Origin: Argopecten irradians | Taxonomy: Eukaryota; Mollusca; Bivalvia; Pectinida; Pectinidae | Length of the DNA stretch: 64,000 nt | Assembly (NCBI RefSeq): GCF_041381155.1 | Contig: NC_091137.1 | Coordinates: forward strand, 16,053,765-16,117,764 | Reading direction: 5' to 3' | In this document: in pieces, positions 4,495-51,301 of the stretch | Numbering within the stretch: the first letter of the stretch is position 1 | Layout: each line of letters begins with the position of its first letter | Made by a program: the position numbers and the translations under genes | The notes under the pieces: generated by a model | The model's database searches: none | Told to the model about the DNA's origin: nothing | The model's input: the letters and a program-made list of their open reading frames with translations, nothing else

Positions 4495-4627
4495 ACAGTT
4501 TCAGATTGAATTGCGCCTGAGATATCAGGCCAGCAGACTGGCAGTCCTTGACACCTGCGTGACATCATCCCTCCTCTCTACGGCTGTGTCGCTTCTACCT
4601 GTACAGACTGAGCCGTCCACAATGCCG
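4495..4627 (+). other. putative first exon of gene 1 (5' UTR plus two codons)
   Basis: This segment is less AT-rich than its surroundings and ends with ACA-ATG-CCG followed by a strong GTAAGT donor at 4628. The start ATG (4622-4624) has A at -3. Joining it to the exon at 8027 stays in frame and extends the signal peptide. The 5' edge is uncertain: an AG at 4493-4494 could be a splice acceptor, but its pyrimidine tract is poor, so transcription may simply begin near here. Confidence 0.5.
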
Positions 4628-7600
4628 GTAAGTTTTCTTCCATTTTATTGCCAGCACATACTAATGTTTATATTGACATGTAAAGTTCACAGTTGTATAT
4701 TACATTATTTATTTGGAAGGTTTAATTTCTTTGAAAATGTCTGTATCAGAAAATTATTATAACCCTGACATTTATCTGGACACGTATGAACTATTCAGCG
4801 TTTTGGTTTTTGCACTACCTGTCATATTGTTTTCCGCTTTGATTCTGTACTGGAATGAGTCCTGACCTTATCACCTAACATCTGTTTACTGGATGTAACA
4901 CTTCGCTAACGTGATCAACATACATTAGTTCCTATATCAAACCATATATCATTAATTTGTTATATCTTAATATTCAAATCATCCACATGCTATTTATAAA
5001 GAATGGTCTCAGTCTATCACTACCTAAGATCCTCTGTAGTTTGATGTAACACTTAAACTATTCATTACTGCTCTAATTGCATTTACTTTTAATGTTGTTC
5101 TTAAACAACATCATTTCTCATCACTTTGTCTACATTCATGTTAATTTGAGCACCAGTGGTATGTATCAACCTTGTTTTGGTAGTGTCGATATAGAATAAA
5201 AAAGACCAAGTTTGGATGTTTTGATATATTTTTTATTTTTATTATTATTGGGAGCATATCTTGATATGCACTCATGTTTTGTAATCGTTTCTATCTCTAG
5301 AATATTTGTAATACTATATTTCCCCTGATTTATTCACAGCTGTAATGTTAAATTTTTAATGCTGGCACTCACCAATTGGAAGGTTGATGCCGTAAAAATC
5401 ATTGCTAAATCGCATTCAATGCGTTCTGTCCGTCCGTCTCAGCTTCCAAAAAATCCTACCAATTATTTCTCAGTCGATTTTATCATTACGAAAACTCTGA
5501 ACATTTAATATAATCAACAGGTGACACAGGTGAGACAAGTGGTATGTTGCGCAATCGCTGTATAGGTACATGGAATCTTAAATTCAATACTGTCATGCTT
5601 CGCACAATCTGACATTTGTCACGAATGTGAATTGTCTAAAACGTGAGAAAGATTCTAAATTTGGAATGTAAACTCTGGAGCATTTTAGAATTATACACAA
5701 AGCTTTTCTAATTGAAAGAGGAAACAATAAATCATTTATTTATGGCATTAGCATTAAAAAGATATCAAAGTTAATTATCCATGTAAAGCTATCACTGATG
5801 TTGGCAGTGTAGTTATTATATTTATTTTATAGAAGTTCAAAGAGACACATTTTACATGATTAAAAGAAATATCAATTGAGATAGGTTATTGCTTCAAATC
5901 TTCGACCTCTAATTATTGTAACTATATAGAATGTTTTAATTGATATCGACCATTTTAAACCGAAAACTCCGAATTCCTTTTAGAACAAATTAGATGTTTG
6001 CCCATTGCTTACGGTCTATCAACAAAGGATGCTATTTGTATCTATATGAAATAAGAACTAAATAGGAATTGGTATATTTGTGTGATGTCTATATCTTGAT
6101 ACGATATTTTAATACAGTGTACGATTGTAATACCTTTCGTAGACACCCAGATTATAATAATATGTGAACATAACTGGTCACAAATCCATTCGATAGTTTA
6201 TTACATAACATGTATTTCCAATGCTAAAAGTAATTGCTTATTCTCAGAATGAATACTTTGAAGTTCATAACACCACCACACCCCACCCCCACCCCAATTA
6301 ACTGATATGGGTATGGATATAGGCTATGGAAATATATTTGAGAAACAAAGCAAATCTAGACAGTTTAGTTCGTCCAAATTAAAGGAGACTGAATGTGTAT
6401 GCATAACTGTACAAATGAAATCGCGAGTGTATTAAATGTGAAGGGCCGGGACAATAACAGAATATTCATAATTAAACATGACAATGTGATCTCTGAGACG
6501 TCACGTACAGTAAAGTCAAATAAATAGTTCTATTGTATTATCACAGCTAGTGCAAATGTATATATTACATTAGTTTGGACGTTGGCTACCTACACCTTCC
6601 TTTGTTCTAAAGACAAAAGAACACAGCTTTAGCATTAGTTAAGTAATGAGGTAAAAGTCTACGATAAACTGACTTTTCTTTTGTTGTCAGTCAGTTACCT
6701 AGACAGTTGTAGTAATAAGAAAACGCGCGTTTTATTTACCATTCAGACACTTAATTAATTCGTTACTACATCGAGTCCTCCGTTAGCGAATTTTACACCA
6801 GGCACAATGTCAAAACTGTATAGTTTTATACATTTATTAACTACACCAACACACATCATTCCGTTACCGAGAACACGCATATTTTCCTCGTCAAAGTAAT
6901 GATTTGCATGTAAGACTATGCATTCATTGCATTTTACTGAGTGAAATATGAAGATTTGTTCACTCAAAAACATGAAATTTCCCAAATGTGAGTTATAACG
7001 GCGAATGTTACCTGTATTTACATACACCATTTAGCAACACGTTAAAGTAGAAATGATCCACAAAATCAAATAACTTCTAGACCAAGTTATTTCCCTTATT
7101 GGAATAGGATGACTTGTAATATTTTCGTTACATGTATGTTTCATTCATAATATTTGTAATCAATTAGCAACAAATATACATTGATTTACGATTAATTTGA
7201 TAAATATCATAAACAGGAATTCTCTAAGATCCCGTACTGCTACATGAACAGGAGATACATCAGATGGACGCTATGTCATGTTTCAGCAATAAACGTCCAT
7301 TATCTAATCTGATGTCGCTATAATGTAAATATTATTAATTCTCTTTTATGTTTTATACGCAGTCTTATGCATAGTCAAGTTCACATATAACAGAGCATCC
7401 TAATAATTTGCTTTGCTACTAGATTGACTTCATTTTTTGCAGGGTAAATATTTACGGATATCGAAGAAATTTACTCATTAAAACTAAGTCAATGCATATT
7501 TCTATCATGGTCACTTATGAACGGATATGGACATTTAAAAAATGTTAAGAATACACGTACATGATATAGATTTAAAATTACAGTGCTTACCATTCACGAA

Positions 7601-10600
7601 AGAATAACAAAATTAATAGTTAGTAACTCATGACATAGTATATATATTTAAGGACTTTTCTCTTATGAAAGGGTAGCAATAATTATTAAGGAATTAACTT
7701 AACCTTAACATTAACAAATATTCAGATCAATCATTTGAATTTCCATATTGATGGCTCATTTTTTTTCTGAAATAACCCTACGCTGTGTAGCAACTAATTA
7801 GAACCAACGTTACAAATGGCGACATTATTTGTACATTGTAACGTTATGATACGATAACATATATTGAAAAATAAAAAAAGACAAAAAAATGCTTGCTACA
7901 AACTAAAATGAATTATCAGCTGTTAACGAATGATATAGCATTCGGGACTGCATTACATTAAAAGATATGAATTTTGGATTTGTAAATTTGTACTGAATCC
8001 AGAATTGTAACATTTGCCTTTTTCAGAACCACGTGATGCTGTTACAAGCAGTCGTGTTTCTAGCCTTTGTGACGTCAGGTAAGTTGATTGAATCTTTTTA
8101 TCCAAACGAAATACAGTTACTTAGATGAACTTAAACTATTTGAGAAGTGCGATTTATTTTCATATGAATATTTCTTCAGATCAGCAAATAAGTCATGGGA
8201 CTACGTTTACGTGATAACGTGAATGGAATATATCGATACAGTAGGACTGATATCAATACAAAAACAAATTTTAAATTTTCATTGAGATAAAGAATGGCAG
8301 AAAACTGAATACAAATTATGTAATTGACTTTTACAGTAATTAGCTACTGTCAGCGTCCTGGCTTCATATGTATGAACAGGGGAAACTGTACTGAGGAAAA
8401 GAAGTGTCAATGTGAGAGAGGATGGGCGGGCTACGACTGCCGGGCACCTGCAAGTAAGTCACCCATATACCATTAACTTTTCATTCTCTGAGAAAGCAAA
8501 ACGTTTTTGTAAGTTATATTTCATTTCACTATCGATATCTTTTTGTTTTATTTTGAAATATTTTGAGTGTGAGGTGCTATGAAATATTTTGATTTTGTTC
8601 GGTTTTCATATCTGTATTTTTTTTATTTATTTATTTATTTTTTTATTTTTTTTTAATTCTAAAAGATTTGTTCCTGTTAACCTATACACTTTGGTTTTGT
8701 ATTTTCCCGGATTGTATAAGTAATAAACTGTACACTAATTTAAAGTTGAACAGAAAATTATATTGAATTATATATCTCTTTCAAGGGATTGTTTAAACTT
8801 TAATGAATAAAAATGATTAAATAGTTAATTGCTTATAATAAAAAATAAGGTAGAAATGTGATATTTTATCAAATATCATCGTGTATACATAAAAAATAAA
8901 AATGAAAAATAAAAAAGGTGTTCAAAACTTAAGCGCATCTTTATTTTCATTACATATTTAACATGTTCCTGATCTCCGATTTCCAGAGTATTTAGATTGT
9001 TATAAGAGGTGCAGTAACCATGGGACGTGTGTACTAGGAACCTACTGTTATTGTGACTTTGGATATTACGGCGATAACTGCGAAAAGAAAAACGGTGGGT
9101 ATTATACAGTAAGCCTTTCGTACAATTTAGAGCTAGGGTAATTCGTCACCATGCTTAGGTTTGAAGATTGATCTAGGAAAGTCAAAATAACACGTATCTT
9201 CTAAAATTTAGGGCACTAAATTGATTTCTTAAAACACCTTATGTATGTCAGGTATGTGTAGGAATCTTCAATTAAGCAATTAAAGAGCTGAAATATACGG
9301 TTATCTTTAAAACATAAACCTAGATACAATAATAAGAAATATTTTATAAAACATAAAATCGTTTGTCATTATTTTACCACATTAACAATATTTTTCTTCA
9401 GAAACAATCCAATGTAATATGTTCAGTATGGATATCACTATGAAGACACCTGGAGATCGTGTTATAAGTCTGCATGGTGCAGATGGGTGTACGCTGAAGC
9501 GTGACAAGTCGCCTGCTGCGAAAAATGAATATTCGTTCAAGCGAACTTTCTCAATGACCCCTTTGCCTGGTTCACCTTGTGACGGCTATCGCCGAGAACA
9601 ACTTGGGGTACGACAGTAACTCATTTATGATTTTATAATGAGGTAGTATTTTTGCTGAAATTGTGAAATAATATTGTGATAGTGTATGAATGAATGATGA
9701 TGAATATGACGATGATGATGATGAACCATTTGCTCATTTTAACACTTAATCACATGAATGATTAATGTAACTTGTTCAAATTTGGTATCGTTTCAGCCTG
9801 GAGTGTTTTCATATACCTTACCAATGTCTGTGCAGCGCAAGAAGAAAACATTTGCACCATTAGACTGGATGACCGAGTTTACGTGCACATATGAACGAAC
9901 GTATGTTGATCCTCTTATGAAAGTAAAACTATTTGATGCTTGATTCATTTGCATAAATTTCAGAGTGAAATTTTCAATACTGTTTTGCATCAATATAAAT
10001 CCATTCCAAAGGTTAAACCTGTGATATGATCTAACTATATAATTGTATCATGCAATTTAAATAAAAAAGATCACTCATGCTAGGATACACGGCAAACTTG
10101 TAAGGATTGCAACACGGACGCCGTGACGTCACGAAATTGTATAGTATTGGTAGCAATACAGCCTCACTCATACGACCGGCTGTAGTGCTTAGGATTAAAG
10201 CCTGTAATACACCTGTAGGCATACAATAAAGATGCTTATATACCAATTCAAAGGGTAAAGACAATAGTGATGACCATACAATATATATTAAGTGCTAAAG
10301 AATGCCTTCTGCTCTACCCACTTTGTCATTCAAATGTGACACTGAAAGGTTTTGTAAATATATAAATTGTGTATTAATATATGTAATGATTAACCTAATC
10401 ATTAAACACGAGTTTGTGTCTTGTACGTAATCGGCTAAAAAATATATTAAATATGTCTATTCATAAAATCTTTACTTCTATAATCTGGACAACGAAGCTT
10501 TTAATTTTCTTGGCATTTTTCTTAAATGGATGTTGAAAAAAACACTAATCAGACTACACATTTAGATAATTCATTAATTATGCATTATCCCTTTTATTTC

Positions 10601-13600
10601 TATGGTGGGAAATCAATTGCGATAACAGACCACAGAAAGGCCACACACTGAAGGGTTTTCTGCAATAAGACATCAAAATTTGATTAACCACAATTTATTT
10701 TAAAATTCATAGTACATGTATCTGTCAAATTTGCATAAAGCGTAGGTTTTAATTTTGACGTCTTTTGTATTTTCTGATCTGTCTTTACTTTTTTGCATTC
10801 CAATATGAAAAGAAAATCCGAGAGTGGTGCGAACCAATCACATTAGAGACACTGCTGTTGCGTATTAATTCGGAAAAAGAATCAATAAAGATTACTAAAA
10901 TGGTACATTTAAACATATTTTATTTTATCACATAGATTAAAAAATTAATTCTAAGTATTGTTGTCACCATTTTTCAATTTCATGGGGGTATGAAAAAAAT
11001 ATTGCAAACTCTTAAGAGAATTCGCTACTCGAATTCACACGGTTTGCAAACAATTTGTTATTCATACCCCCATGTAATTAAAAAGTAGCGATATCAATAC
11101 TTAAATGGTTCAATAAATACTATAAAAGAGTAGATGAGAAAATATATTACATTGTAATCATACAACGACTGATGTTAATTTCTAATGTGAATAAAAATTG
11201 TGTTACAGAGCCAAAAGTTCAGTACAGACGAATGAAGACTACAAGCGGTTTGAAGTTGATCTCGTTGATTATTTACAAAACCCCGTTGAGCCGCCACTTA
11301 CACAGAGCAAAGAATTTTCTTTGGTATTTTTCTGTACGTATTCACACAATTACAGTTCAAGATCAAAAACCTTTTCGCATTGGTTTTTTTCTTCATATTC
11401 TATGTATTTTTACTTTTTCAATTGGAATTTTTAAGATAATATTTTTGTCCATCGCTTTGCGAATCATTTTCTCATTTGTAATACTAATATTGGTAATTGT
11501 AGTTTGTTTGTGTTTCCATATGAAATATGAATTTCTCAAAACATACATAACGGAAAAATATGCAAATATTATTAGCCTTAGCTTTATTAGATTTGACAAT
11601 GTCCAATTATAATGGCAAACATTTAAATTCATCTGTGGATCAGGAACATGTTAAGAAAAAAGTAAAACTACACATAACATGTAGAAAAAATAGCAGTGCT
11701 GAAGGACGATTGACCCATAATATTACGTGATGTATTACATGTATTGTATAATATAATAATCAATTACAATATAATATAATAAATATTATACAAGGTACAG
11801 ACTCTCATACAACCAATGATTAATTTGGCTATAATCATATGATTTGATAATCAATTTACGGTAATTAAGGCATAGTGTTTTATTCCTTTCTCTATAAGTC
11901 AAATTTATGGCCAATTTAGACAGTCGATATCTATGACAGTAATATGTAAAGTTTTGGAAAAAAAATTATGTAAGCTTTGAGTTTGTTTTCCAATCCCAAA
12001 TAGTCCCTGCATACATTATCAAAATATGAATATAATACTGTTTAAGCGAAAGAATAATGTTAGCTCTTAATGCTTTTCGTTGATAATGTTCTCAAAGACA
12101 AAACATGTTTATATCCCTCATGCTTTTCCTTGCAGCCAATGATACAGACTATGAAGTATTAGTTATTGAATTGGTAATGTACAACGCCATGAATTCTGTA
12201 AAGATGTACGAAATCATCATGGACGGGTGAGTTTGTAATCAATGTTGTATTTTGATGCATTTTTATCCCATCTTTTTAAACTAATCAGAATCAAACTCAA
12301 TGTTCATTGAACATACCATTCAAACAAGATGATAATATAAAGAACATCGTACATAAGGTAGACCGTTCTAATTCAGCCCAGACATGATCAAGGATAATTT
12401 CATCCTCACTTCTTATCGGTGCTTTAGTTGTTTATGTTAACTCTAATTGTCTAATTGGGGGGGTTGGGGGGTTGGGGGCGCTGCGATGATTTTATCACAA
12501 GCAAATAGGCAAATAAATGTCTGATCAATCATTGAACAAGTATTAGTGGAAATTTTCTCCTTAACATTTAAACTTCTTTAATGCAGTCTAATTAATTTCT
12601 AATATTGAAAATCATTTTATCATTTTACCAGCGTTTTCCTGTCATTAATGGACATGTAACTGATAAATGTGTTTGTTTACGGGCTAGGTGTAAGACATTT
12701 AGCGGCGAGACGATGCTAATGAGTGACCAGTATGTTGCTGACCATCTACGTAATGACAATAGGAGACAGGTAACTGGTACATTTGTAACCCTCCACCCTC
12801 TTAACGAAGCCATAGAAGTCTTCTTCGACTACAAAGTGCGTGTATGCAAAGGCCAGTGTTCCAAGGTAGGTCACACAACTAAGTGGCAATGTTCTTATCG
12901 TTCAAACGCTTTGTCATTTTACAATTTCGAATTGTTTAATTTTGCATAAAACACAATATCTTCAATTCAGAAAAAAAACATTGATTTTAGTAGATCTTTG
13001 TAGATAAGATTGTAATGCACAATTACATAGATGCCAATAGTGATTCACGTGTACAAACTTTACAATAGGGTTTATAATTTAATATGTAAGTATTCGATAG
13101 TGTTCACATAAAAAGATGTTTCAGTCTCATGATATAAAATAGAGGTTTTGAAACAAACACGAGACAAATATTTAGGTGTCTTTTTGATCATATCATTAGA
13201 TACGTTCTGCGCTCCGGCATTATTTAATTCTACCAGGGCAGTATACCACCATTTGGACCTCAACAAAGGTCCATAACTTATATATTTGTTAAAATGCAAT
13301 ATCATATAGTCTTATCGGCAAGTTCTTAAAGTTATATGGGCCGTAAGTTTCATACTGACAAATTATGAAGAGATTTTATAATATTCCTCAATATCAAAGA
13401 GATATCTTAGAATTACAATATCTAAAGCGATAGATAGACAGTACATGGTTAGTCTCTTACAATACAAGGCTTATTTTGGGTCGATTCTTAGGAAAACCGA
13501 GGTAACGAGGTACCAGTTATTTACTCGGTTGCGCTCGAAGTGAGACGATACTTTGATGCGGAGGAAAAGATTCATTCACTAAACCGAATGAGAGTTTACT

Positions 13601-14132
13601 CATTTTTACTACCGAGAGGAATATAGAACCGCATACGTAAATAGTAACAGTAATCCTGTTCAGCGTGTAATATCTATGGAAAAAATAATAAAAAAAACTA
13701 TAATTATCCATCAAAGATTACTTGACAATACATATCTTTGCCGTAAGCCATAAGTGATTTTCGATATCGTAAAAATGATGTCATTCCGGTGAATGTGACG
13801 TCACTTTTAGCCGGAATGAATGACGTTTCTTTCAACGGAAGGTTAAAGTTCGGAATGAAGTTTAGAAAAAGTTCCGTTAGATGTGACGTAATCGTAATGA
13901 CAGATAAAGCATTTCGTATTGATGGATAAAGCATTTCGGATTGACGGATAAAGCACAAGTTTATCCGGCAGTAATAATCTATCAGTATGTGTTGCAGTTG
14001 CGGGATAAACTATGATAACCATTACAATGTGTGACTATCATCTAATTCTGTTTTATGTTATAATTGTAGCCCATCTGTGATCATAAAAGAATACCGGAAA
14101 CACGACCAGGAACACGGATTAATCTCGCGTGA
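4622..14132 (+). CDS. Gene 1: secreted protein with two EGF-like domains and a ZP domain
   Basis: Coding exons (window positions): 4622-4627, 8027-8078, 8337-8453, 8987-9094, 9402-9607, 9797-9900, 11209-11333, 12136-12226, 12688-12865 and 14070-14132; total 1050 nt, 349 aa, all joins in frame with GT/AG borders. Residues 1-22 form a hydrophobic signal peptide. EGF-like domain 1 is C24-C54 and domain 2 is C63-C90, six cysteines each. The ZP domain runs from C99 (IQC) to about C332. ZP-N keeps four cysteines, with the last in a TEFTCTY motif; ZP-C opens with DGC (C271) and ends near VCKGQC and PIC. No transmembrane helix or basic cleavage site follows; the last exon adds 20 residues. Family knowledge: ZP modules polymerise extracellularly, and EGF-ZP proteins occur in bivalve shell matrix. 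A shell or matrix role is inference. If the two-codon first exon is wrong, M6 is the likely start. A possible AATAAA poly(A) signal lies at 14322. Confidence 0.82.
9690..9724. repeat. GAT/GAC trinucleotide-like microsatellite
   Basis: A short run of GATGATGAATATGACGATGATGATG-like words lies in the intron between the two ZP-N exons of gene 1. It is not coding. Confidence 0.6.
10952..11103. repeat. foldback (inverted repeat) in gene 1 intron
   Basis: The arms (about 10952-11011 and 11041-11103) are reverse complements around a short centre. The strongest blocks are CATGGGGGTATGAA paired with TTCATACCCCCATG, and ATTGCAAAC paired with GTTTGCAAAC; the outer ends AAGTATTG and CAATACTT also pair. 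The size (about 150 bases) and position about 100 bases upstream of the exon at 11209 suggest an inserted foldback MITE. It could form a stem in the pre-mRNA. Confidence 0.65.
12457..12480 (+). repeat. G-run tract with quadruplex potential
   Basis: Three runs of five to seven G separated by TT lie within 24 bases, in the intron upstream of the gene 1 ZP-C exon. The longest run could supply two tracts, so a G-quadruplex is possible on the sense strand. Confidence 0.5.
13903..13956 (+). repeat. 22-bp direct repeat, three copies
   Basis: GATAAAGC starts at 13903, 13925 and 13947, an exact 22-base period. The first two copies continue with ATTTCG(T/G)ATTGA; the third diverges after GATAAAGCA. 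It lies in the last intron of gene 1. Confidence 0.6.
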
Positions 14133-14321
14133 GGTCAAGTGCACACTTAAGGACTTCCAGAGCGAAATGTTCCCTGTGCCTATATTTAATATTATCTAAG
14201 GATACGCCTTTGTTATTTTCATTTCCGCGTGAATATAACGAACTATCATTTGTACAATCCATGCTTCAAAACACGTTTTACCAATGTTTGTGTTTATCAG
14301 TAACAACTGACACTTGCATAA

Positions 14322-21909: not shown

Positions 21910-24900
21910 ATGTCATCCTTCATCGTGTTTTCGTCATTATTTGTTGGCCTTACATTTGTCGTCCTTGGTAAGAACCTTTGTCCTAGATTTACATCAATAA
22001 ACTGTTAATAACGAATATTGCATATATATTAATGTATGAATTTCCAATATAACAATAAAAACTATTTGAAAATCATTAAAATCAACCATGTCAACGGGAC
22101 AGTTATATATGTAATTTATCTGTTCTCCACCTGACAGTGAGTCTTACACGTTATTCTTAATTCCGTTCTGAGGTTATGTCTTTGAAAGATTGACACAATC
22201 ACAGTATGATTGCTTTCAGTAAACAGTTACTGTCAGAGACCGGGGTTCTATTGCCAAAACTATGGAAAGTGTACCGAAAACCAAACCTGTGAATGCCCAA
22301 CAGGATACAGAGGCTTCGACTGTCGGGTACCACAATGTAAGTAAAAACTGGTTATGCTATATCACTCAGAGTATATGTTGCATCAAGCTTTGTGTTCGTA
22401 CTAACCTATTAACCTAATAAGTTTAGATTCAATTCAATTAGTTGACTATCAAAAATTATTATTAATGCAATAAATCAGCCATAACACAATGTTTTTTGTA
22501 ATTATAAAAAAAACCTTTAAATCAATCATCTCCTCTGTTCATATATATAATTCATATTATCAATAATGCATATTGAATTTACTACCAAAAGATTTGCCTT
22601 CTATCAAGGCTATTATGGGGTTTTTTCTACAATTTATATACCGGTATATCAAAAACAAAAAGCTACATAATTGATAATTTACTCTTTAAAAAGGAGTTAA
22701 AAGACACTACACCGCACATAGATGCAATTGGATATATAAGACCATAATAATTATGATAGTGATGGTTTAAGGCCTGGGAAGTTCTGAACACATCTTAAAT
22801 TAAATCAATGTTTCATTAAAGAATGCTGACAAATAAAGATGTGCACCACAAAAATGTCCTTACTCATTGAAAGATAGGCAAAAACAAATATATGTAAATG
22901 AGGGTTAAACGTAAGTGTGAAAATTAGAAGATTTGTATACACATGTTTTATTGAAAAGTGAATATCAAAATATCTTTGATCGTGTATTATGATATCAACA
23001 ATTCCTTAAATGTGTTTTCATTAACCTTTAAAAGTTTAAGATACTTTAATTTCCAGCATATTACATGTGCTTGATCAGGAAACATCTGTCTATATTGCAC
23101 AACAATGAATTAATCAGTAACAAGCAGTATGAATATCATTCCTGTATCATTATAATGAGGAAAACTAAGCCCATCTTCACGACACTACTTAATTAACATG
23201 CCTGACAACTTGATCCATCAATTGTCGCCTGTCTAGATATTATGCATACGTCATTACATTCTCCTCTTCTTAACTCTGAAATATGACTTGCTCTATATAA
23301 CAAAAATCAAGACATTGAAAAAGTCATTTTTCGTGTAGTAATATTTATAATTCATATAGCTATATGCCAATGGTATATGCATTATAATTAAAAGCATCGT
23401 TTTTAATTTTATCAAAGCTTATTTTAACTTTTTAAGCTTTACTAGATACAATATTAAAGAAAGATGTTTTCTGCTTCAAATACATGTAGGATAGAATTAT
23501 AATATAGGTCAAGGATAACTGTATATTGTAAACTATGATGTAGTAGTTCGTTATTCTTATATTTAAGTATAGGTATTCTCTAAAGCATTATATGATCATT
23601 CATACATGGTTTGCATCTTATTTGAAGGCAAAAGTCGTCCAGTTTTATTTGCTTTGTAAATCACTTTCTTAATCAAAGAATCTAAACTGAGTATAACTTA
23701 TTCAGAAACTTAATACTTCGTTGTGTGAATTACAATGTAGGTGGTTGGATGATGATTTACCAAATAGATTTATTGATCAATATTCAGTAAACACAAATCC
23801 ATCCATCGTTTAACAGACTTTGGCATTTTATGTGATGGGTAGATGCAAAATAATAATGAACTCAATGTTGACATAAGAAGTAAAATGCTGTTTATTAAAG
23901 ACGTGGTTGGCTGACTGCAATGTAATATCGATGTTTTATTTTATTTCCCAGGGGTTCCGAAATGTAATAACAACTGCAGTGGCCACGGGGAATGCGTAAC
24001 TACAATGGGATCAAGCTGGTGTTACTGCGATTATGGATACTTTGGAGAGAACTGTAGCATCAAGAATGGTAGGCGATTGCTTTAGGTTTACTTTGGAGAG
24101 AACTGTATAATCAAAAATGGTAGGCAAATGTGATTAGGTTTAATTTGCAGAGAACAGTAGCATCAGAAAAGTAGGCATATGTGGTAAGAGTTACTTTGGA
24201 GATTAAAAGTAGCATCAGAATAGTAGACAGATGTGATAAGAGTTACTTTGGAGATTAAAAGTAGCATCAGAATAGTAGACATATGTGGTAAGAGTTACTT
24301 TGGAGATTAAAAGTAGCATCAGAATAGTAGACATATGTGATAAGAGTTACTTTGGAGATTAAAAGTAGCATCAGAATAGTAGACATATGTGATAAGAGTT
24401 ACTTTGGAGATTAAAAGTAGCATCAGAATAGTAGACATATGTGATAAGAGTTACTTTGGAGATTAAAAGTAGCATTAGAATAGTAGACATATGTGACAAG
24501 AGTTACTTTGGAGATAAAAGTAGCATCAGAATAGTAGACATATGTGGTAAGAGTTACTTTGGAGATTAAAAGTAGCATCAGAATAGTAGACATATGTGAT
24601 AAGAGTTACTTTGGAGATAAAAGTAGCATCAGAATAGTAGACATATGTGATAAGAGTTACTTTGGAGATAAAAGTAGCATCAGAATAGTAGACATATGTG
24701 ATAAGAGTTACTTTGGAGATAAAAAGTAGCATCAGAAGATAAAAGTAGCATCAGAATAGTAGACATATGTGATAAGAGTTACTTTGGGGAGAACAGTAGT
24801 ATCAGAATAGTAGACATATGTGAAAAGAGTTACTTTGGGGAGAACAGTAGTATCAGAATAGTAGACAGATGTGAAAAGAGTTACTTTGGGGAGAACAGTA

Positions 24901-27900
24901 GTATCAGAATAGTAGACAGATGTGATAAGAGTCATTTTGGGGAGAACTGTATTATCAGAATAGTAGACAGATGTGATAAGAGTCATTTTGGGGAGAACAG
25001 TAGTATCAGAATAGTAGACAGATGTGATAAGAGTCATTTTGGGGAGAACTGTATTATTAGAATAGTAGACAGATGTGATAAGAGTAACTTTGGGAATAAC
25101 TGTATCATCAGAATATTAGGCATTTGTGATAAGAAGTACTTTGGGGAGAACAGTGTCATCAAAATTGGTAGGCGGAGGTGATACGGTTACATTCGACAGA
25201 ATAGCAGCATCACAAGAGTTATGTTTTGCAACTTTCAAATTTTAACTACGCATCCAAATGGTTCTTGCCTGGGTTACTACATTATTTCTTTTATTTATAA
25301 TTTTTTTTTTCATAAAATAAGTTTTTCTCAAAATAAATTATATTTATATTATTAAATCATCTATCTATTCTTTTCTTTGCAGATACTGTCACCTGTGGTC
25401 CTAAAAATATCAGTATTGTAACTCATTTGTCATCGCCCAAGTCTGTGTCACTCCATGGTCATCCCAGGTGCCAGTTTACCCGTGTCAATGCCGGGCCAAA
25501 TGTCTACAGGTACGAGCTCACGATTGACAGGATTCCAGCTCCAGGACATCCTTGCGCAGGCGCACTACACACTATGGTTATAGATGTAAGTATATTGAAT
25601 TAAAGATATTTATATACAGGGTAGGAAAGTATTAACACGTATCAATTTCTCTGTCCACGTAGAAAATGCAATATGTTAAACTTGGTTTTGGGTTTCTTTT
25701 TAAGCCGACCACAACAGTGCAGATGTTTCATATGGAAATTCAGACAGGTTACGGATTAGTGGCGCCATTAGATTGGATCACAGAATTTGAGTGCACATAC
25801 AAAAGCAGGTAAGTCCAGTAACGAAGCCACGATGGATAGTGCTGGTACAGGCATGGTTGTGTGAGAATGTGAATTTATGACGATTTGTCAGGATATGTAT
25901 ATATGATTAAGGAGCTCAAGGAGTGAGAATTTAGATTATATGTCAAAATTATTACAACTCATGCGAAAAGAAAGACAGCATGATTACCTCTTCTTGTAAT
26001 TACTTGTCATTTTTCTAGACCAGCACGATGACTTTTTATTCCCAAAGAGTTTCCTCAAAATTAATAACCATAAGGAATTTAAGAAAGATGTCTTGTTTAT
26101 TTAACGAAAATATTAAGACAAACTCAATCTTAAAAGAAGGTACAATGAAGGAAATCAGTTTAGCATCCTTGTTGGACAATATCGGATGCCTCCTAAAGGT
26201 TTCATTATTCAAGATATTATTTTATTATAATAATCACATGTTCATTTCCTATATTTTTTTATATGTCTGAATTCTATCATTTGTGCAACAGTACCATTGG
26301 CGCTACCCGAGAAAAGAAGGACGCGAAGCCATACGAGGTAAAGCTGTTGGACAGTCAGTATGACCACAAGACTAACGGAGAGGTCCCCATGTATCAGGAG
26401 TTCTCCCTCGAATTTACACCGTCTCTAACACTGAGAGGTCAGTTTTATCACCTTTAAATAGCATACCGTCTCCAATATTGAGGGGTTTTTATATCCCTAT
26501 TATCGCATTTAAGTTAATTTTAGACAAACATATCGTATCAATAACTGTGAGGCCAGTTTAGAATCATTGATAACTAAATGGACTCTGAGTATGAACAAAA
26601 TAGGTACTCATTATACTAATATATTAGACTACGCCTTGTATCAATTCAGTTGTACGTATAAAATGAAAAATTATCAAAGCAAGGTCTCATGATAATCATT
26701 TTTGTGATGCATTTTCATTTAGGGCCGGATGCTCACCTTATGGTTTGGGACCTGACAGTGTTTGAAACAAAGACATCACGACGGGTAGCCGAAGTTCTAA
26801 AGGAAGGGTGAGAGAAAAACGCAAATATCCGAAATAATCGAGCTTTATCATGACGCCAATAAGTAAATCAATAATAGTCCTTAGAAACCAATCACTGGGC
26901 TTTTACGTCCTATAAAGCTGAAATTATCTGACAGCCAATGGTTTTTCTGGATCTTTACCATGACAACACCAAATGCTATGTACTTAAGGAGTTGTCTTTG
27001 AAATGTAAATCAGCATAATTGAAATAGGTCTATAAACAGTGATGAAATATCATGCAACGTATCGATGTTGATACTTCACATGAAATAACTCTAGAAAGCT
27101 TAATAATAATATACAGTGTAGCTTGTAACATTATTGAGTAATGGTATATCCGACAGATTTGTAAATCGTAATTTGAATCATTCATGTTTATACATCTTAT
27201 GTATTAAATTTATTATTTTGTATTTCACCAACACTTTTACAACAATTTACATCAGAAATCACAGTACCGGAAATGTTGCTAATACACAAGTGTATGGGCT
27301 TATCATACCAGACAATATCGCTAAGCATGATCGATTACGCTATTACAGGTGTCTCACGATTGCTGGAGAGGAGAGACTGTTGGGACCACCAGCACAATCA
27401 CAAAAAGGCATCGTTCTCACCTTTGCTCCTGTTAATAAAGATACCCTCCTTTTCTATGACTACAAGGTGAAAATCTGTGAGGGACTGTGCCCACGGGTAA
27501 GTATGGAAAGTACAATATTATGTAACAAAACGCTTGATGTACTGCATGATAAAACTGGATATTATACTTTATCTAATTACCACATACATGCATATTTGTA
27601 CCAAAATGAAGTTATATAAGATATTACTAGCGCTAATCAAAATATTTTGTCTATATGGCTGTTAAGTAAAATCAATATGGGTTACCTCCCCTTACAAATA
27701 TTATTAATCCTATTATTTGTTTATAATATGTGTACGATTATATACAATTTTCACAACTATTGGATTTTTTCTTTATACTGACTCTATGTGTTTTGATGGG
27801 CTTTTTTGGTAATAGAAATGTAATCTAAATGTCCTGTCATATTTGTTTTTATGTCCCATGTATTTGTAATTATGTTATATATATTTGTATGTCCCATGTA

Positions 27901-33800: not shown

Positions 33801-34469
33801 GGAGTTATTGCCCTTGTTTAATATGTCCCCATAGTGTACCACACAAAAACAAAATATTTTTATCAATGAAATCATTCGTTATACAGAATCACACGTATTT
33901 ACATATGAACACTTATTTATATATACTTTATACATTTCTGGGCTAATTGTTCGTCACTCTTCTTGTGATGTTAATTTCATCCTTTTAATATAGAAAGAAA
34001 GTCTATCGATCAATAGCTAACTTCCGCCTTCTTCTTGGACGACTTGTTCGAGTCCGATTCCTTCATATTGCATCATCAGTATACTATAAAAGCATAAAAC
34101 TTGATTATTTTCGTAGTTGACGATGTGTTTGTTTCGTACAAACCATTTTGATTGTCTCAACTCAATTTTCCGTCCGCATTTTTCTGTTATAGGACTTCCA
34201 TATGAGTGATACTTATAAAGGGAAACGTGTTTCACGATATGGATATTGAATAATTCAAAACTTATTGTACTTTACCATTTCTTATTTTATTGTGCTTAGA
34301 TTTAAAATCCAAATTCATTCCATTATCTCTTATATGTAGTTTAGTTATAGTTAATTCCAACGTGTTATATGTTTTCCTCGAAGAGATTTTTCACCGCTGG
34401 TGTATTCCATCATCCAAAGTCGTTTACTTTATGGAACGCATATGCTTCAGCTCATTTGGAAAAATATTT
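30881..34469. other. intergenic DNA, no gene seen
   Basis: No exon could be supported. A copy of the AAGGCGACTAAATCTGG dispersed repeat lies near 32780. Sequence becomes the 52-bp array at about 34470 without a sharp border motif. Confidence 0.45.
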
Positions 34470-42608: not shown

Positions 42609-45600
42609 CTACAATGTTAGTTTAGCCCGTGGTATGTGAATTCCGTGTGTATTCTCCACTAATTTCTGTACTTTTCCCCGTGAGCGTACTATGAGCGTTG
42701 CTAGGACGATACATGCCACCAGCATCACCAACACAAGTGCTGACATAGCAATGATAACAATGATGATTTCACTAGATCGGAAACAGTCGGACTCTGCTTC
42801 GGCTGAAAAAAGAACATTGAGTATACTTAATCATATCGATTAATGATATGATTACAAATGTTATTTCGTTTTTCAATGAGTCTTGAAAAGTAAATGATCA
42901 TTATCGAATATCTTTCATGAAGCCACTTTCAAATATAAATGTACGCAATATTTTCCAACCAGAAAATAATTGTAATTATGAGAAAATAAGAATATTCCTT
43001 TTAAAGAATTATCATAAAAAATATCATGGATTAATTAAGAATGATTTCCAACTTATGTTCTAGATGACCAAGTTTATAGTATTGACATTTTGTTTGTTAT
43101 TACCTGTTTCCTTTTTGGGTAGAACAATAGGTTTCTCAAGTACAGTGAACAACGCGGACACTGTGTGTTCATCTGTACTGTTGCTATGATCGTCAGCACT
43201 ACGACGTCTTCTGGCCACTCCTTGTCCGTTACAACTGGGCTATAAAACAAGTTTATAATGGTAAGTAAAACTTTTACGTAATAATGTTACAAAATAATGC
43301 AAAATGGTTATAGAAATCTAAAACAAAATCCCATGGTTTCAAAAGTTGACAGTACACGATTGGATATATTCCAGATGGTTACGTTTAGACTTGTACACTG
43401 AAGAACCGTTTATGTACATCGTAAAGTCATGAATGTATGTACTTGGCATTATTCTAGTTTCGTACATCTATTTTTTATTTATTTTGACAAAACATTAGAG
43501 AAAAAAAATTGCTTACTACTTCACAAGCGGCTTCATCCTCGGCTTTACATATCTTTACAACACACTGGATGAAAACCTGTTTGGAATCGTAGAACCGGAA
43601 ACCAAGCATGTGGAGGGCAGCGGCTGGGATGGGGGCAGTGAAATCGGGCGGCGTATAATCCATCTTCACTTGGCCTGGGGGGTCTTGCATCACAAGGTTT
43701 CCATCAGATGTTGGGCACCTATAAAGATAAAGATATCACTAAATAATAAACATTCCTCTTTGTATTCCAGTATAACCAGAAAAAATATAAATAATTAAAT
43801 TGATATAATCAAACGCAATGATCTTCAAAAAGCGTTCCAATGTGGGTAGTGCCACGACACACTGTTGGTCTATGACTTTGTACGTTCTGACACTATACAC
43901 ACGCGAAATGTCTTACACGTAAACCTGTCTATAGAGTCTTTATATATAGTGGAATGTTTTATTATTAATTCTGAGTTAATGTCAATTCAAGTGAGAACAT
44001 TTTTTTAATATTATTTCATTTACTTAAAATGCACTGCCATCAATATGCTTACTCTGAACATTTTATAATCGTGCTCTAAAATGATTAATTCCTATCGTGA
44101 TGCCATTGAAAAATATAACCACAACACAATGGAGGTTAGCAGAAAAAACTTGTATACAGAATAACAAAATGATATGTGTATAAATGCGTGTCCAGTCTTT
44201 ATTCTGAATCTATGAATTGGATGCTGGTATTTACATAATCATTCTGGTGAACATATAATCACTGATGTAAACACTTTTGATAATACTGGAAAGCTTAGGC
44301 CGAATGAGACGCTATGGTACATGTATCTGCTAGTGAAACATATATATTTCAAATACGTACCCATTGTCTAAAAGCACGACCTCAGTCTGTGTTCCTTCTT
44401 CGCCGTTATTGGCGACGCATTTTTCCAACAGGAGTGCAGTGTATACTGGAACAGAATGTTGATCGAAGGGTTCATATATCAGATTCGTGGAACATTTAAT
44501 ACACTTTATTTAAAAATAAAGATGCCATCTCTAATATTTTAGAGTCCAATAACTTACTCAAAACACACACTCGCTCACTAATTACATGGATAATCAACGT
44601 TTAATGATAACATTCTGTGATTATTAAACACTGATATTTACCGTCAGTTGAGGTTAGATAGACCATGTTGGTGAATTTCTCGCCTACGAAAAGAGCTCGT
44701 GCCAGAACGTTCTGGTTATCGTCGAGGAAGTGGAATCGCACAGGAGAGTAAGTCTTTTTCTCCTCATTTCTGGTCAAATTTCCACTGTAAACAAAAGCGG
44801 AAAATAATGGTTAGCGCAATAGGTATATCGTCGGAGAATTAAACATCGGTGTATTCGCGGTCAAATTAATTTCGGCGAACACTGATAATCGTTTGTTTTT
44901 CAAACGTGATTATTGACTTTCATAACATTCATGATCGATCGCTAGATAGTTACAAACATATTTACTATAGCCACGCCAGGTACTACCACTTGCACATGAA
45001 GTTATTCAATGTGGGATCATACAAAATGTATAATGCAAAGTCACGCGCAGGCGGCTTGATTGCCAGCTAGTATCTTTCCGATCATTGGGAGCAACAAACC
45101 TCCTAGTTGTTTTTTGTGAAAAGTTAAATAACCCATTGTATTCGGAATATAGACAAAAGAAATAGAAACCCTATATAAATTTTACTGTATCTAATTTGCA
45201 ATACGTGGAAATTTCCCGTAGCAAATCAAGAACTTTCTCCATACACAATTATATAACTACATATGTGCAACTATATGTAAAATGTAATATTGCTTGTTTG
45301 TTTTATAGATCAACGTCCTATTAACAGCCAGGGTCACAAAATGTAGTCAGATCGCATATTACTAATTATAACTGAAATATGGCCAGAGAAGGTACAGGGT
45401 GTTACATACCGTTGGTTAATGGAGCTGTCCATATCAGCTTCCATGGAGACGTTTGATGCGGGATGTGTACAGTTGAACGTGATGATACGATCGTTTCTGG
45501 TCTGGATAAATGAATGGAATCCTACCACTATGTCTGTGATGTAGGTGATGTCTCCTGTCTGGAATGGAAACATTTACGTGACGGAATGGCATAGTAAATT

Positions 45601-48600
45601 AAATTATTGACTATCAGACATAATCAACACACAGGTTCTGTTAAAAGTTTGTTTGAAAATATTTTTTGTATTTGGTATTTGTTTTGACTTTCTCATTTCG
45701 CTAACAATATTGAGGTAATACAAACAACATGCAAAAATCATATAACACTACTGTTGTACTGTAGTATCCACATTTACTACTCACTCCCTGATAAGCAATC
45801 ATGCACTCTAAAGCAATGAAAATAATAGCTATCATATAATGTAATGCGGATGGTGTACTTGCTGTTACCAGTAAAGAAAAAGTATTCGTGAGAGATAAAC
45901 TGGAAACTATTAAAAACTTATTTTGGATTAAATCAATGCGCATCAGATTATCATACTAACAGACTGTTTATTTTCTGATTTGACCTTTCAGCATTACCTA
46001 CCATTGGGTAGTCCTGAACTTCTGTAGCACCACATGTGGAGTTATCGAATCCAACGGATGATGTGAATTTACGGTAGCCCTCCACATCACTTGTCTCCTC
46101 CTGGAATCGACAGTCTGTCCGGGAAGTCGCTCCATAGATGGCGCCACTGAACCCTTCTGGAACCATCATACTGATCTTCATATCCGTACCGAGACATTCC
46201 CAGGTATCTGGAAGGAATCTTTAGTTGGCTGATTGCTGTATTTAGCTCTGAGGCGAAATAGTGATCTTTTATAAATATATATGAATCATTATTTGTTTTT
46301 GTCGTACATAACAACATAGATATAACATTTACATAAAGCCACCCGAAGTATTTGATCAATAAATATACTTTTTGAGTGCGTTTAAACATGGGCGATTGGT
46401 ACACAGTTCCATGAAGTTTCCTAAAAACGCTACTTGTAACCATCATCTATACCGCAGAGGAACCATTATATTGTGACACGTTATGTAATAATCGATAAGG
46501 AAGTTTGTTTGTGTACTATTGTATAAGTCGCATTTTGAGATGTGTACAAACCTATTGACAATGAATGAATAGTCAATACTTATTTCGAATACAAAAACCA
46601 TCATACAAATGTATTATTTCAACAGGATATTGATATGTAACAACGGATCTAGATTTTGCAAAAAAAAATCAATTCAAATATTCTACACATGTAATGATTT
46701 GATTAACTTGAGAACATTGGCTGGCAGTTTGTTCCTATTCTCGAGAGTAACTTATGTATGAGTATAAACGTCACATATAAACGTAAGATCAAATAGCAAA
46801 CTGAAAGCGGAAATGTAAATATTCAGGCATATGTCATATCATACCTGCTGTATTATTAGATGTACACAGGTGACGAACGCGCCAATTGCGTTGCCTAAAT
46901 GACTGTATACACCCATTAGTCAACTGATTTATTTGTATCCGTTGTAAATTGATAAATGTCTTAGGTCAAAACACTATAACATGAAATAGAATGGTCCCTT
47001 TTGATCGTAAGTTGATTCATTCCTCCGACACTGCTGTGATGTGTTTTATCATACACTATTTGTGATATTTAAATATTTGTAACAATCCGCAATTGTCAAT
47101 TTGTCTATAAAATCAAATAAATCATATTATGGTGCATTTGAAAAGAAACAGATAATTGATCATCAATCACTTCTGAAATACTGTTGCGAGAAGAAGAATG
47201 CAAAATGAATTGTAACCAAAAGTATTGAGCACATCACGACATGAAATAATTCATCTTAAACAAATTGTTAAATTATTGTATTCTTAGGTTTTAAAGGAAC
47301 TACATCATAGTCAACTGATATACGTTATGGATGAAGAACTTTTATTCATAGATAAAAATCAAAATATTTTGTTGTTTTTGGTGTTTTTTATATCCTTTCA
47401 TTTTTTACATTTTTGTTGTTTTCATGTGTACCACATATTCCATGATCTTCAAAAACTATTTTATATTTTCATTATTATTACTTAGTTAAATATTTATTTA
47501 TTTTTTAATGTAGATAACAGATGTCCAGCTTTTTTTATAATGCGAAACTGACAATGTATCATAGGGAGATATAATTAGTGTTGCCATAAATGGCTTTGTA
47601 ATTACGAGCATCTCTACACGCCTATGTCGACTCCAAATTATAATGTACATTAATTAAAATCTGTAACACCTTCACTTCACTAAGGTGGTAAGCCATTTCA
47701 ACTAAAAAGTTAATTATGTTTTGCGCAAAAACTCTAATTATGTTTAATTAGAACAAACTTCACATGAATGCTTATCACTTTACACAAGGAAGTGAATTAT
47801 AAATATCATAATTAGAAATATTTTATTACACATGCATACATTAAATATTCATTAGTAAAGTTATATGGAAAGCATTGCATTCAAATGTGAATGTGACGAG
47901 TGTAAATGGAAACAAGCCACTTGTACTTCCTAATGGTCCATTATGTTTATGAAACATCTTAATTGGAATTATGCTTTTCATATTCTATGATTTAATCCAG
48001 TTGCCCAAATAATAATTCTTACCTTGAAATATTTGACAAAATACGGTATTGTCGGAAGATAGGATTTCAACGTGAACGCAATATTTAAGCGTAAACGTTG
48101 TTCTGTAAAAAGAACACCTATAAATTGTTGATATACATGGGGAGGGTAGGGTCTTTAAGTGACCCTGTCTGATAGTAAGACATTAAACATGATAAAACAA
48201 AACATGTTTCAAAATTATTTTTTTTAAAGTATTATATCACTAAAAATAGTTGTTATCAATTCTCACATTTTATTTTATGTAAACAAATGAAAAACTACTC
48301 CTTTTTTATTAACAACTACACTTTTTTACTCAACGAACTACGTATATACCCATCTCAACAAATTTAGGTAGGCAGATTTCTGAATTACGACGACTGTGAT
48401 AATAACCCCTATAGTATCGAGTGTTTGGTTTGGAATGTAAAGTATAAACAATTCTATTAAATGTCTCAAAATATATTGGATACATGTATTCAATAATGAT
48501 AATATTTGAATGACACAAATTAAGGCCATTAACAGTAACAATTAAAAAAAACAAGTTCCTGGTTCGAAACCCAGTATGGTTGTCACATTCTCTTCAATTC

Positions 48601-51301
48601 TATTACAATATTAACTGGTGAGCTTGCCAACCTATTTTAAGCATTGAAGATAAGCTACGCAGTGGAATATGTGAACCTTTAAGTTGTTGTGTCATCGGGG
48701 AGAAAGCTTGGGGAAAAGAGGGGGAGTGAATCGATCATCGGTGACCAGGTATCTCTATCGCTAGAGCATGAGGTAAGGGTTCGGAGGTCCCTGGTTCGAA
48801 CCTCGATCAGACCGCTACATGTTCTCCTCTCCTGTTGAACAGGGATACACAAACACGGCCGACACCTTATATTTCTACAAATAAAGTATTTGTTTATGAA
48901 GTAAAATGTATTACAAAATGATTTTACATTGTTTGGTGTTGGGGGCTATAAAAACAGGTAACCATGGAAATAAACGCATGCCGGAACCTGCTTGTCGTTC
49001 GGTTCTCGCCTTATACTGGGTACTATCTAAAATTAGAAAAGAGCATCGACACCCACAAAACGAAAAAAGCTTTTCTAATTAAAACATGCTGGTTAACAAA
49101 TGAGTAAAACTGTAAAACCTCGATAATATCCATCGTTTTATAAGAAATATCAACTTTCTCATGTGTATACCTTGAATTTTAAACTTGTTTTCTTCAAATC
49201 ATACGGAATGTATTTTTATGACATATATAAGATTGTTCAAAGATAATAAATAAAGACATCTGACATAGCGAGGTTTTACCGTATTTCTTATTTTAAGAAG
49301 ATATGCTCATCCACTTTTTGATTCCATTGTATCGCAATTAAGAATATAATAGTTGAGAATATATGGTTGATGGCAATAAATACAGTCCACTGGGTATCAA
49401 CTAACACATTGTTATAGCTGACAGAAGGGTTTGTTGTCTAGTCTACTCGTTTTGTACACTGATTAATTTCAGACCTGAACTCAACCAGATGATGTCTATG
49501 TCATCCTGATTCAGCCAAGTCACTTAAGGTTAGCCCTGGGTCATGTGTCTGAATCTCACTCCCGATCAGTTTATGGCTCCTCATTGGCCAAGACGTGTTT
49601 GCGGAAAGATACCAATGCGTAGATCGATTTGCTTGTTTTCTAAGTTTCATCAGTTCTATGATATCGATAAAATGGGACAAAAACTGAACATATTATAGTA
49701 AAACCAAAGTATATGAGTTTGTCGAATGTATAGCGTCCCCTTACTAATTTGAATGACCATTGTTGCCCATTATACAGTGAGTAAGGTAAGTGTCATAGTT
49801 CCTATTGTAACGTCTCGTTATAACGACTACAGGGGTAAGGATGGCCAATGAACTTATCCGTACATATCATCTACCTGTACATTGAAATCTTTCCATCTAA
49901 CCCCAACGAGTGAACGCTTATATCATAAATCAAAAGAAAATCTTTTCCACTTTCAATAAAATATTCCGCACTATTGACTGGACTGGTTCGATAATCAAGT
50001 GTTTGAGCATATCCATCTACAATTCTACATAATAATTTCATCTGCATATCTTTTTGTATATGACCAATATAATTCATGCAAGCGATGCTGTATTATAATC
50101 ATATTATTAATAAGTATATAACGGAATATAAGGTACATTATTCTATGAACTAGCGTACAGTGTGAAATACAAGCACAAGTGTTAAATTACTAATGATCGA
50201 TAGGATGAAGTTAAGTTACAAATGAAATGATTCAGAATGAAATATAATGTGACTATTCTGGTTTTGCATATCAGAGAGTTACCTTCAATGGAAGTTGGAA
50301 TCGAATGTGACGTAATTATCTTGTGAACGAAATTGACGTCATTTTCTCTGAAAAATATGATGTCACGCTCGCAAACACATGATGTCACAATCAATACCTA
50401 CCCACAAAGGTAGATAACTGTGTAATGTGCGAATACAGAATTGGAAGTAGAAGCTTTAGACAAGAATAGTTTGAATACATCAATGGCTAAGCTTATGGTT
50501 ATATAACAGAGTAGATAGTACTATACGTGGCTCACCTGTCTCCGTCTCACAGGTGGGACCATAGTGTGTCACAGGACAGTAACACGTGTCGGTATTGTAG
50601 CAAATACCTCCATTTGAACATGGATCATCCACGCAATCTTGTTCAGCTGGAACCAAAAAATCACAAAAATAAACATCAAATGCTTTGAATCCATGACTAT
50701 TTCTAAGAAATAAGCAAAAACTCTAAATCATCGTTTCTTTCTTCTTTTTTTCGTGTCGTCATTATATGATTATGTTCTGACATCGATTCAAATGATCTCT
50801 TTTAACTATCAAAGACATATTTCTTGTCTGTTTAGCCACTAATTGAATATAAACGAACGAGGTTATAATTCACAGACACATGTACAACACCTAGTATATC
50901 ACCTACCTATTGCGACCCCGCAGTCATACGATGTATACTCAGGGGCACATGCGCATGTCCCATCCTGGCATGTGCCTCCGTTCTTGCATTCATACCCTCG
51001 ACGACGACAATTATATGGATTCTCCTCTGTATTCGCGGTCATGTCCTGCGCAAACGTCAGGTGTAGAACTGGAATGAGAAACAGTTATTTCAAATAATGC
51101 ACTGTTAATAAACAAGAAACAAAACATTTTTCGAACACCGATTTATTAGCTCTACTTTCCTTAACAAAATTGAATTGATATTAAAAAAAATCGACAATTT
51201 CCAGTAGATACAAATCAGGAGAAGAAAATGCAGCACTTCGAGGTAATTTTAAGTAACTTACCAGAAAACAGACATAACACGAGTATCCCTGATCGAAACA
51301 T
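42609..51301 (-). CDS. Gene 3: membrane-anchored protein with two EGF-like domains, a ZP domain and a furin site
   Basis: Coding exons in transcript order: 51262-51301, 50907-51068, 50536-50646, 46002-46207, 45410-45558, 44642-44784, 44361-44445, 43517-43718, 43104-43239 and 42609-42802; 1428 nt, 475 aa, every join in frame. Residues 1-21 are a signal peptide ending HLTFAQ. EGF-like domains are C34-C63 and C72-C100. The ZP domain runs from C109 (WEC) to C369: ZP-N has four cysteines, and ZP-C begins NGC (C300) and includes FRFYDSKQVFIQC, VVKIC, AACE and PSCNGQG. RRRR at 376-379 followed by SAD is a furin-type site at the expected place after the ZP module. A transmembrane helix spans about 424-450, followed by a 25-residue basic tail. 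Family knowledge: such ZP precursors are cleaved at the cell surface, releasing the module for polymerisation. Intron phases match genes 1 and 2. N-X-S/T sequons include NST, NCT, NVS and NLT. Confidence 0.87.
45301..45340 (-). mobile_element. 3' end fragment of a dispersed SINE/LINE-like repeat
   Basis: Read on the minus strand it contains GTGACCCTGGCTGTTAATAG and GGACGTTGATCTATAAAAC. A related tail lies at 48155-48206 on the plus strand. To my knowledge this tail type is very frequent in bivalve genomes. It lies in the intron between the gene 3 exons at 44642-44784 and 45410-45558. Confidence 0.5.
48023..48102 (-). other. possible unused or alternative 80-nt exon in gene 3
   Basis: On the minus strand this segment follows TTCTTTTTACAG and ends CAAG before a strong GTAAGA donor. 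One frame reads YCVHVEILSSDN and then TVFCQIFQ, which looks protein-like, but that frame does not fit the upstream exon phase. In the phase dictated by the preceding EGF exon it would shift the frame and stop the protein about ten codons into the ZP-N exon. It may be a chance splice-site pair, a relic exon or a frame-breaking (poison) exon. Confidence 0.25.
48150..48206 (+). mobile_element. 3' tail fragment of a dispersed SINE/LINE-like repeat
   Basis: Contains AAGTGACCCTGTCTGATAG, TAAGACATTAAAC and an A-rich end, the same tail type as the minus-strand copy at 45301-45340. It lies in the long intron of gene 3 between the EGF and ZP exons. Confidence 0.5.
48737..48905 (+). mobile_element. tRNA-derived SINE in gene 3 intron
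   Basis: The head (about 48737-48816) keeps both RNA polymerase III promoter boxes of a tRNA: an A-box-like TATCGCTAGAGCATGAGG region and a B-box GGTTCGAACC. It does not fold into a clean cloverleaf with matching acceptor ends, so a functional tRNA is unlikely. The body after it (CATGTTCTCCTCTCCTGTTG) is of unknown origin. A second B-box-like TGGTTCGAAACCCAG at about 48560 may be another, truncated copy. Confidence 0.6.

Follow-up and report, generated by a model that had tools for sequence, protein, structure and literature searches.

A 64,000-nucleotide stretch of the genome of the scallop Argopecten irradians (C4:16053765-16117764, C4 being contig NC_091137.1; genome 845.8 Mb), hereafter called the window, probably contains the greater part of the scallop counterpart of the bivalve EGFZP/EGFL shell-matrix gene cluster. 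Three genes inside the window (A, B and C) and a fourth outside it (D) combined a signal peptide, EGF-like domains and a ZP region in one protein, with the signal peptides judged by eye and the ZP region diverged in A, B and D. Gene C would correspond to EGFZP, and genes D, A and B to EGFL, with products that are likely soluble. The ZP-N part was whole in all four genes. The ZP-C part showed a graded loss of disulfide pairs, C having all three, A and B two each, and D a single one. A first-pass annotation of the window had reported a cluster of three genes; the three genes were confirmed, but the count was not, as gene D was found upstream of the window. The observation is real, mostly as first described, and of a published kind rather than a new system. 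Corrections worth recording are the fourth gene, the cryptic nature of the ZP region in three of the genes, and its graded loss. Two small points are new: the graded loss of ZP parts among genes of a single cluster, and a minisatellite whose first unit begins within an EGF exon.

Organization of the gene cluster

The exons of genes A, B and C were located by six-frame translation and self-comparison, followed by reading of the DNA; coordinates given without a contig are window positions. Gene A (coding sequence 4622..14132, forward strand) had 10 exons and encoded 349 amino acids, with a signal peptide, two EGF domains and a diverged ZP region. Gene B (21910..28936, forward strand; 9 exons, 346 amino acids) followed the same plan. 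Gene C (42609..51301, reverse strand, start at 51301; 10 exons, 475 amino acids) encoded a signal peptide, two EGF domains, a full ZP module, an RRRR furin-type site, a transmembrane segment and a short tail. Gene D (C4:16039033-16048564, forward strand; 9 exons, 357 amino acids) shared the plan of the other three genes, and its 3' end lay 5.2 kb upstream of the window edge. All 34 introns were of the GT-AG type (26 in the window genes, 8 in gene D). The three multi-exon genes stood where they had been predicted. The prediction of a signal peptide and two six-cysteine EGF domains also held for A, B and C, each of which had a hydrophobic N-terminus, as judged by eye, and 6 + 6 cysteines in register.

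Genes D, A, B and C lay on one contig within a span of about 66 kb, in the tandem placement by which the bivalve EGFZP/EGFL shell-matrix family is recognized. Pairwise identity among the copies was 22–34%. No further cluster member was found in the flanks of the window (40 kb upstream and 30 kb downstream), which were searched with all four proteins except for C4:16033765-16053764, covered with A, B and C, where the matches were gene D exons. The sole flank match outside the four genes at E values up to 0.5 (E = 0.13) lay in C4:16013765-16033764 and contained an internal stop. In a genome search with A, B and C, the best candidates scored outside the cluster were matches to the EGF part and matches at chance level; among them, the ZP-C of gene C weakly matched another ZP gene (C4:32178827, E = 0.046). 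An earlier B protein, with exon 5 starting at 25663, was used in the flank search with A, B and C, in part of the genome search and in the first Pfam run. Homology, shared introns and tandem position support a local gene family well, as had been proposed, and the four neighbouring genes look like copies of one ancestor of known shell-matrix type.

Shared intron phases

Genes B and D had the intron phases 1,1,1,0,2,1,2,0. Gene A carried the run of gene B, preceded at the 5' end by an additional phase-0 intron that follows the second codon, and gene C carried it followed by one extra 3' phase-1 intron before the transmembrane exon. With these two additions, the identical run reported earlier for the three window genes was borne out. 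Intron positions were compared on a protein alignment built without the exon positions, and introns were counted as shared if they had equal phase and lay within 10 columns of each other. The pairs A-B, A-D and B-D each shared 8/8 introns, exon 5 of gene B having beforehand been adjusted to the length of its counterparts in A and D (in the earlier B model, the fourth intron was 14 columns off). Each pair with gene C shared 7/8 introns within 10 columns and 8/8 within 15. In a random control (8 introns, 200000 draws, phase weights chosen by us), at most 5/8 introns coincided at 10 columns, and 7/8 was reached once at 15 columns.

Two other ZP genes of the genome (L059 and L060; two exons read in each) shared some of the introns of the ZP region. 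L059 had two of five in common with the cluster genes (phase 0 inside ZP-N, phase 2 before Cys6) and L060 one of five (phase 2 before Cys6). Part of the intron run is therefore older than the cluster family; the complete run was seen in the cluster genes alone. Gene C looks nearer to the ancestral form, because its phase-1 intron after the furin-site exon recurs in both L059 and L060.

Homology of the ZP region

Gene C matched the Pfam models Zona_pellucida (E = 2.7e-9) and CUT_N (E = 1.6e-7), both above the cut-offs; its EGF matches were below the curated cut-offs. EGF models were matched above the cut-off by gene A (EGF_2) and by the corrected gene B (EGF_2, EGF and EGF_Teneurin), and below the cut-offs by gene D. 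The 20 matches of gene C to the PDB were located in its EGF part. Searched exon by exon across the genome, the Zona pellucida Pfam model was found at 11 places, none of them in the window.

A joint profile of A, B and D aligned to the ZP segment of gene C over 235 columns (hhalign E = 1.7e-4, probability 50%, score 35.6). None of 100 shuffles of this segment reached that score (best 29.3), and the reversed segment scored 9.8. Taken singly, the ZP halves of A, B and D matched gene C with E values of 3.9e-5, 2.5e-4 and 5.0e-5, respectively. Over the ZP half, codon position 3 was less conserved than positions 1 and 2 in all six gene pairs (A-B: 0.51, 0.56 and 0.34 for positions 1, 2 and 3), which argues that the frames have been held under protein constraint. 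In A, B and D, the ZP half is thus a diverged remnant of a ZP module, homologous to that of gene C. It is recognized by way of gene C, the shared introns and the cysteine register.

Loss of cysteines and C-terminal ends

The names Cys5 to Cys8 were assigned by us to alignment columns from the order of the cysteines. All six EGF2 cysteines were retained in the four genes. EGF1 had six cysteines in A, B and C, and in D it lacked one and had one elsewhere. ZP-N contained four cysteines in each gene, the third cysteine of gene C, aligned ten columns off, being taken as the same residue. In the standard ZP-C, as presented in PMC7456536, the pairs are Cys5-Cys7, Cys6-Cys8 and CysA-CysB, and variation arises mainly through gain or loss of pairs. 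Gene C had six ZP-C cysteines in the order Cys5, Cys6, Cys7, CysA, CysB, Cys8, which equals that of the uromodulin-type ZP-C described there. In contrast, A and B lacked Cys5 and Cys7, and D lacked Cys5, Cys6, Cys7 and Cys8, its two remaining cysteines being placed at CysA-CysB in the adopted alignment. On this reading, the losses appear to have removed complete disulfide pairs: Cys5-7 is missing from A and B, and both Cys5-7 and Cys6-8 from D.

The C-terminal ends also differed. Beyond RRRR, gene C encoded a propeptide followed by a hydrophobic segment and a tail that was short and basic. The stops of A, B and D lay 63, 63 and 69 bp, respectively, into the exon that carries the furin-type site in gene C. 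These three genes had neither the furin-type site, in which they also differ from the uromodulin type, nor the transmembrane segment; only gene C had both. Gene C therefore combined a profile match, four ZP-N and six ZP-C cysteines, a furin-type site and a membrane anchor, the features by which ZP module proteins are recognized.

Comparison with known shell-matrix genes

Shimizu et al. 2022 are said to have described EGFL and EGFZP in tandem in bivalves, with the expression of EGFL tending toward calcitic and that of EGFZP toward aragonitic shell formation. The scallop cluster resembles the EGFZP/EGFL pair of Pinctada fucata in having a full EGFZP beside EGFL-type genes, reportedly also in tandem in Pinctada. 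Compared by description, the scallop EGFL-type genes differ from the EGFL of P. fucata in that they visibly retain every ZP exon up to the furin-site exon.

In Crassostrea gigas, three EGF-ZP genes lie on one scaffold, which was attributed to duplication, and were identified by BLASTp with known shell-matrix sequences (PMC5379566). These genes, EGF-ZP1/2/3 (CGI_10017543, 10017544, 10017545; gigasin-2/IMSP-2 relatives), have in common with the scallop genes the signal peptide, the EGF-like and ZP domains and the neighbouring position. They differ, again by description, in number, since the scallop has four genes, and in the ZP half, which is diverged in three of these. A table in PMC13361971 lists EGFZP and EGFL of P. 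fucata as shell-matrix ZP proteins. With PMC5379566, it bears out the earlier statement that EGF-ZP proteins occur in bivalve shell matrices. An EGF-ZP protein was common to the four marine conchiferan shells compared in PMC8700984, and relatives are reported from Lottia, Mytilus and Placuna (PMC3374290, PMC4517812, PMC8933548), the gigasin-2 of Placuna having a higher level in the mantle than in other tissues. Among the literature titles searched, none concerned this scallop cluster or such disulfide-pair losses in shell proteins, Shimizu et al. 2022 lying outside that search.

A shell-matrix role appears to be the best reading of the cluster, because the genome is that of a scallop and tandem EGF-ZP genes have been published as bivalve shell-matrix genes. 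Gene C, of the full EGFZP type, would encode a membrane-anchored precursor. We hypothesize that it is brought to the membrane and then cut at RRRR by a furin-like protease, and that the freed ZP module assembles with other ZP subunits. The property named in the first-pass annotation, that ZP modules polymerise, carries over to gene C. It does not carry over to A, B and D. Both the furin-type site and the transmembrane segment are missing from these three, as are one (A, B) or two (D) of the three ZP-C disulfides, so that filament formation by the standard route is improbable for them. As tandem copies of the EGFL type, they would have lost these elements while keeping the signal peptide, both EGF domains and the whole ZP-N with its four cysteines. 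Since the losses are shared, the three genes may descend from a single EGFL ancestor that was then duplicated, in this presumed order.

The products of A, B and D would most likely be secreted by the mantle as soluble proteins, with two EGF domains, a complete ZP-N and a reduced ZP-C serving for binding. Instead of building filaments of their own, they would become part of matrix complexes. Pull-downs in which a Pinctada ZP protein bound other shell-matrix proteins (cited in PMC11291548) fit with binding being the function retained. A more speculative extension, which we regard as possible but rather unlikely, is that the cluster preserves successive stages in the conversion of a self-assembling ZP filament subunit into a soluble binding module. 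The soluble copies might then bind and cap the filaments of gene C, or co-assemble with them, and in this way tune the texture of the shell matrix.

The scallop EGFL-type genes do not code for EGF-only proteins, given a ZP region that corresponds exon for exon and is missed by standard domain searches. They offer a testable case in which the elements that control ZP polymerisation (furin site, anchor and ZP-C disulfides) were dismantled and ZP-N was kept. The likely scallop cluster, located mostly inside one 64-kb window, can also be compared with those of oysters.

Alternative explanations

Several observations weigh against the assignment to EGFZP/EGFL. None of the ZP models in Pfam had a match in A, B or D, even at E = 10. 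The joint A/B/D profile found nothing in one other ZP gene of the genome, and among the best 60 of its 99 PDB matches up to E = 10, the top ones were EGF domains and the lone uromodulin match was weak (E = 0.043), spanning EGF2 and the start of ZP-N; both searches used the earlier B protein. As the other ZP gene and the ZP proteins of the PDB were essentially unmatched, the ZP identity of A, B and D depends on gene C. The placing of the two ZP-C cysteines of D varied with the alignment: an earlier one put them at CysB and Cys8, with the last intron of D offset from the others by six columns instead of the four in the adopted alignment. Finally, nemertean EGF-ZP proteins include ones expressed in oocytes and one on the egg surface, as stated in PMC11673550, which means that the role cannot be read from the architecture. 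Of the ZP domains predicted in all three window genes, only that of gene C was thus confirmed by a curated profile. The profile search of the spliced proteins that had been proposed as a check recovered ZP in gene C and missed it in A and B, an outcome that the annotation itself had named as a refutation; their ZP half is nevertheless homologous to that of C.

The nemertean proteins and the strong divergence of the scallop copies (22–34% identity) would suit a family of egg-coat (vitelline envelope) proteins, which coat the oocyte and bind sperm, and whose copies diverge by reproductive selection. However, oyster shell-matrix genes have an equal domain plan and a similar tandem order, and only EGF domains precede the single ZP region in each scallop protein, with no run of repeats seen before it. 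We consider an egg-coat family improbable. It is more doubtful still that A, B and D are decaying, functionless copies beside a single working gene C. The loss of the ZP-C disulfides, the furin-type site and the transmembrane exon, together with the missing Pfam ZP match, could be read in that way, but the three genes are open across 9 or 10 exons with GT-AG introns and retain every ZP-N cysteine. Their ZP-C cysteines were lost in whole pairs, and conservation is higher at the first two codon positions than at the third. The losses of furin site and transmembrane segment would be merely apparent if the true 3' ends of A, B and D had been missed and both elements, as known from gene C, were present in alternative transcripts. 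The gene models were made from sequence alone, and a fast-evolving transmembrane exon might escape tblastn. Yet in A, B and D, the final exon begins at the site homologous to the start of C exon 9 and reaches a stop after 63–69 bp, and C exon 10 had no second match in the window or the searched flanks. Overlooked 3' ends thus seem an unlikely explanation, and we retain the interpretation as a cluster of one EGFZP and three EGFL-type genes.

Exon models

In gene A (forward strand), exon 1 (4622..4627) codes for MP and is followed by a phase-0 intron, and the next exon, which encodes the signal peptide (8027..8078), holds an alternative start ATG. EGF1 and EGF2 are encoded by exons 3 (8337..8453) and 4 (8987..9094). 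ZP-N extends over exon 5 (9402..9607; Cys1-3) and exon 6 (9797..9900; Cys4), the latter having 104 bp as in B and D. Exon 7 (11209..11333) contains the linker and the start of ZP-C, exon 8 (12136..12226) the part of ZP-C without Cys5, exon 9 (12688..12865) Cys6, CysA and CysB without Cys7, and exon 10 (14070..14132) Cys8 and the stop. An upstream extension of exon 6 was dropped, D and B having the equal length of 104 bp. A frameshift before exon 9 was rejected, since splicing at the 12688 acceptor stays in frame and yields the conserved Gly-Cys.

Gene B (forward strand) starts with the signal peptide exon (21910..21967), followed by EGF1 (22220..22336) and EGF2 (23952..24068), the final 31 bp of which form the first copy of an intronic array. 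ZP-N is encoded by exon 4 (25383..25585) and ends in exon 5 (25705..25808). A first model of exon 5, with the acceptor at 25663 (146 bp), was dropped because the acceptor at 25705 yields an exon of 104 bp, the length found in A and D. The linker (exon 6, 26292..26437) is followed by ZP-C without Cys5 (exon 7, 26723..26807), by Cys6, CysA and CysB without Cys7 (exon 8, 27349..27496), and by Cys8 and the stop (exon 9, 28874..28936).

The exons of gene C (reverse strand) encode the signal peptide (exon 1, 51262..51301), EGF1 (exon 2, 50907..51068), EGF2 (exon 3, 50536..50646), ZP-N with the CUT_N match (exon 4, 46002..46207), the end of ZP-N and linker (exon 5, 45410..45558), and the linker and start of ZP-C (exon 6, 44642..44784). 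Cys5 lies in exon 7 (44361..44445), and Cys6, Cys7, CysA and CysB in exon 8 (43517..43718). Cys8 and the RRRR furin-type site are in exon 9 (43104..43239), and the transmembrane segment, cytoplasmic tail and stop in exon 10 (42609..42802).

Repeats and other observations

A minisatellite with a 52/51-bp unit (24038..25154, forward strand) filled most of intron 3 of gene B. Its first unit consisted of the 31 bp at the 3' end of the EGF2 exon together with the splice donor, so the array multiplies the exon-intron junction. The 52-bp units were followed by 51-bp units, and the 51-bp part lay inside a 152-codon open frame. The last intron of gene B contained a 38-bp tandem array of 16.5 copies (27835-28453). 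Two stretches of repeating open frames were present in the introns of gene D (L051:7327-10000 with L052:1-515, and L052 from about 3666 to 4700); as these introns hold such repeats as well, the introns of the cluster seem to collect minisatellites. Between B and C, a 7.1-kb tandem array (34469-41553) had a unit of 52 bp (about 136 copies) or 156 bp (about 45 copies).

Upstream of gene D, open frames resembling the endonuclease/reverse transcriptase of long interspersed nuclear elements (LINE-type) were noticed by eye (L050:462-1890). A short open frame at L055:5380-5733, with a hydrophobic start and the motif DFPRIGKR, resembled a neuropeptide precursor with a dibasic amidation site, again by eye. 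Eight EGF-like matches on the reverse strand of L056 (C4:7082000-7091999) may represent one gene with many EGF domains or several small, clustered EGF genes.

A myosin regulatory light chain gene was located at C11:32721390-32724560 (L093 and L094-L096). Three of its exons (92 residues) were identical to PDB 1b7t_Y (scallop myosin) at 92/92 positions and to 2os8_B at 83/92, 1b7t presumably being from Argopecten irradians and 2os8 from Placopecten. The exon in L093 (26 residues) matched 2os8_B at 26/26 positions and 1b7t_Y at 13/26, which suggests that it is an alternative exon of this gene.

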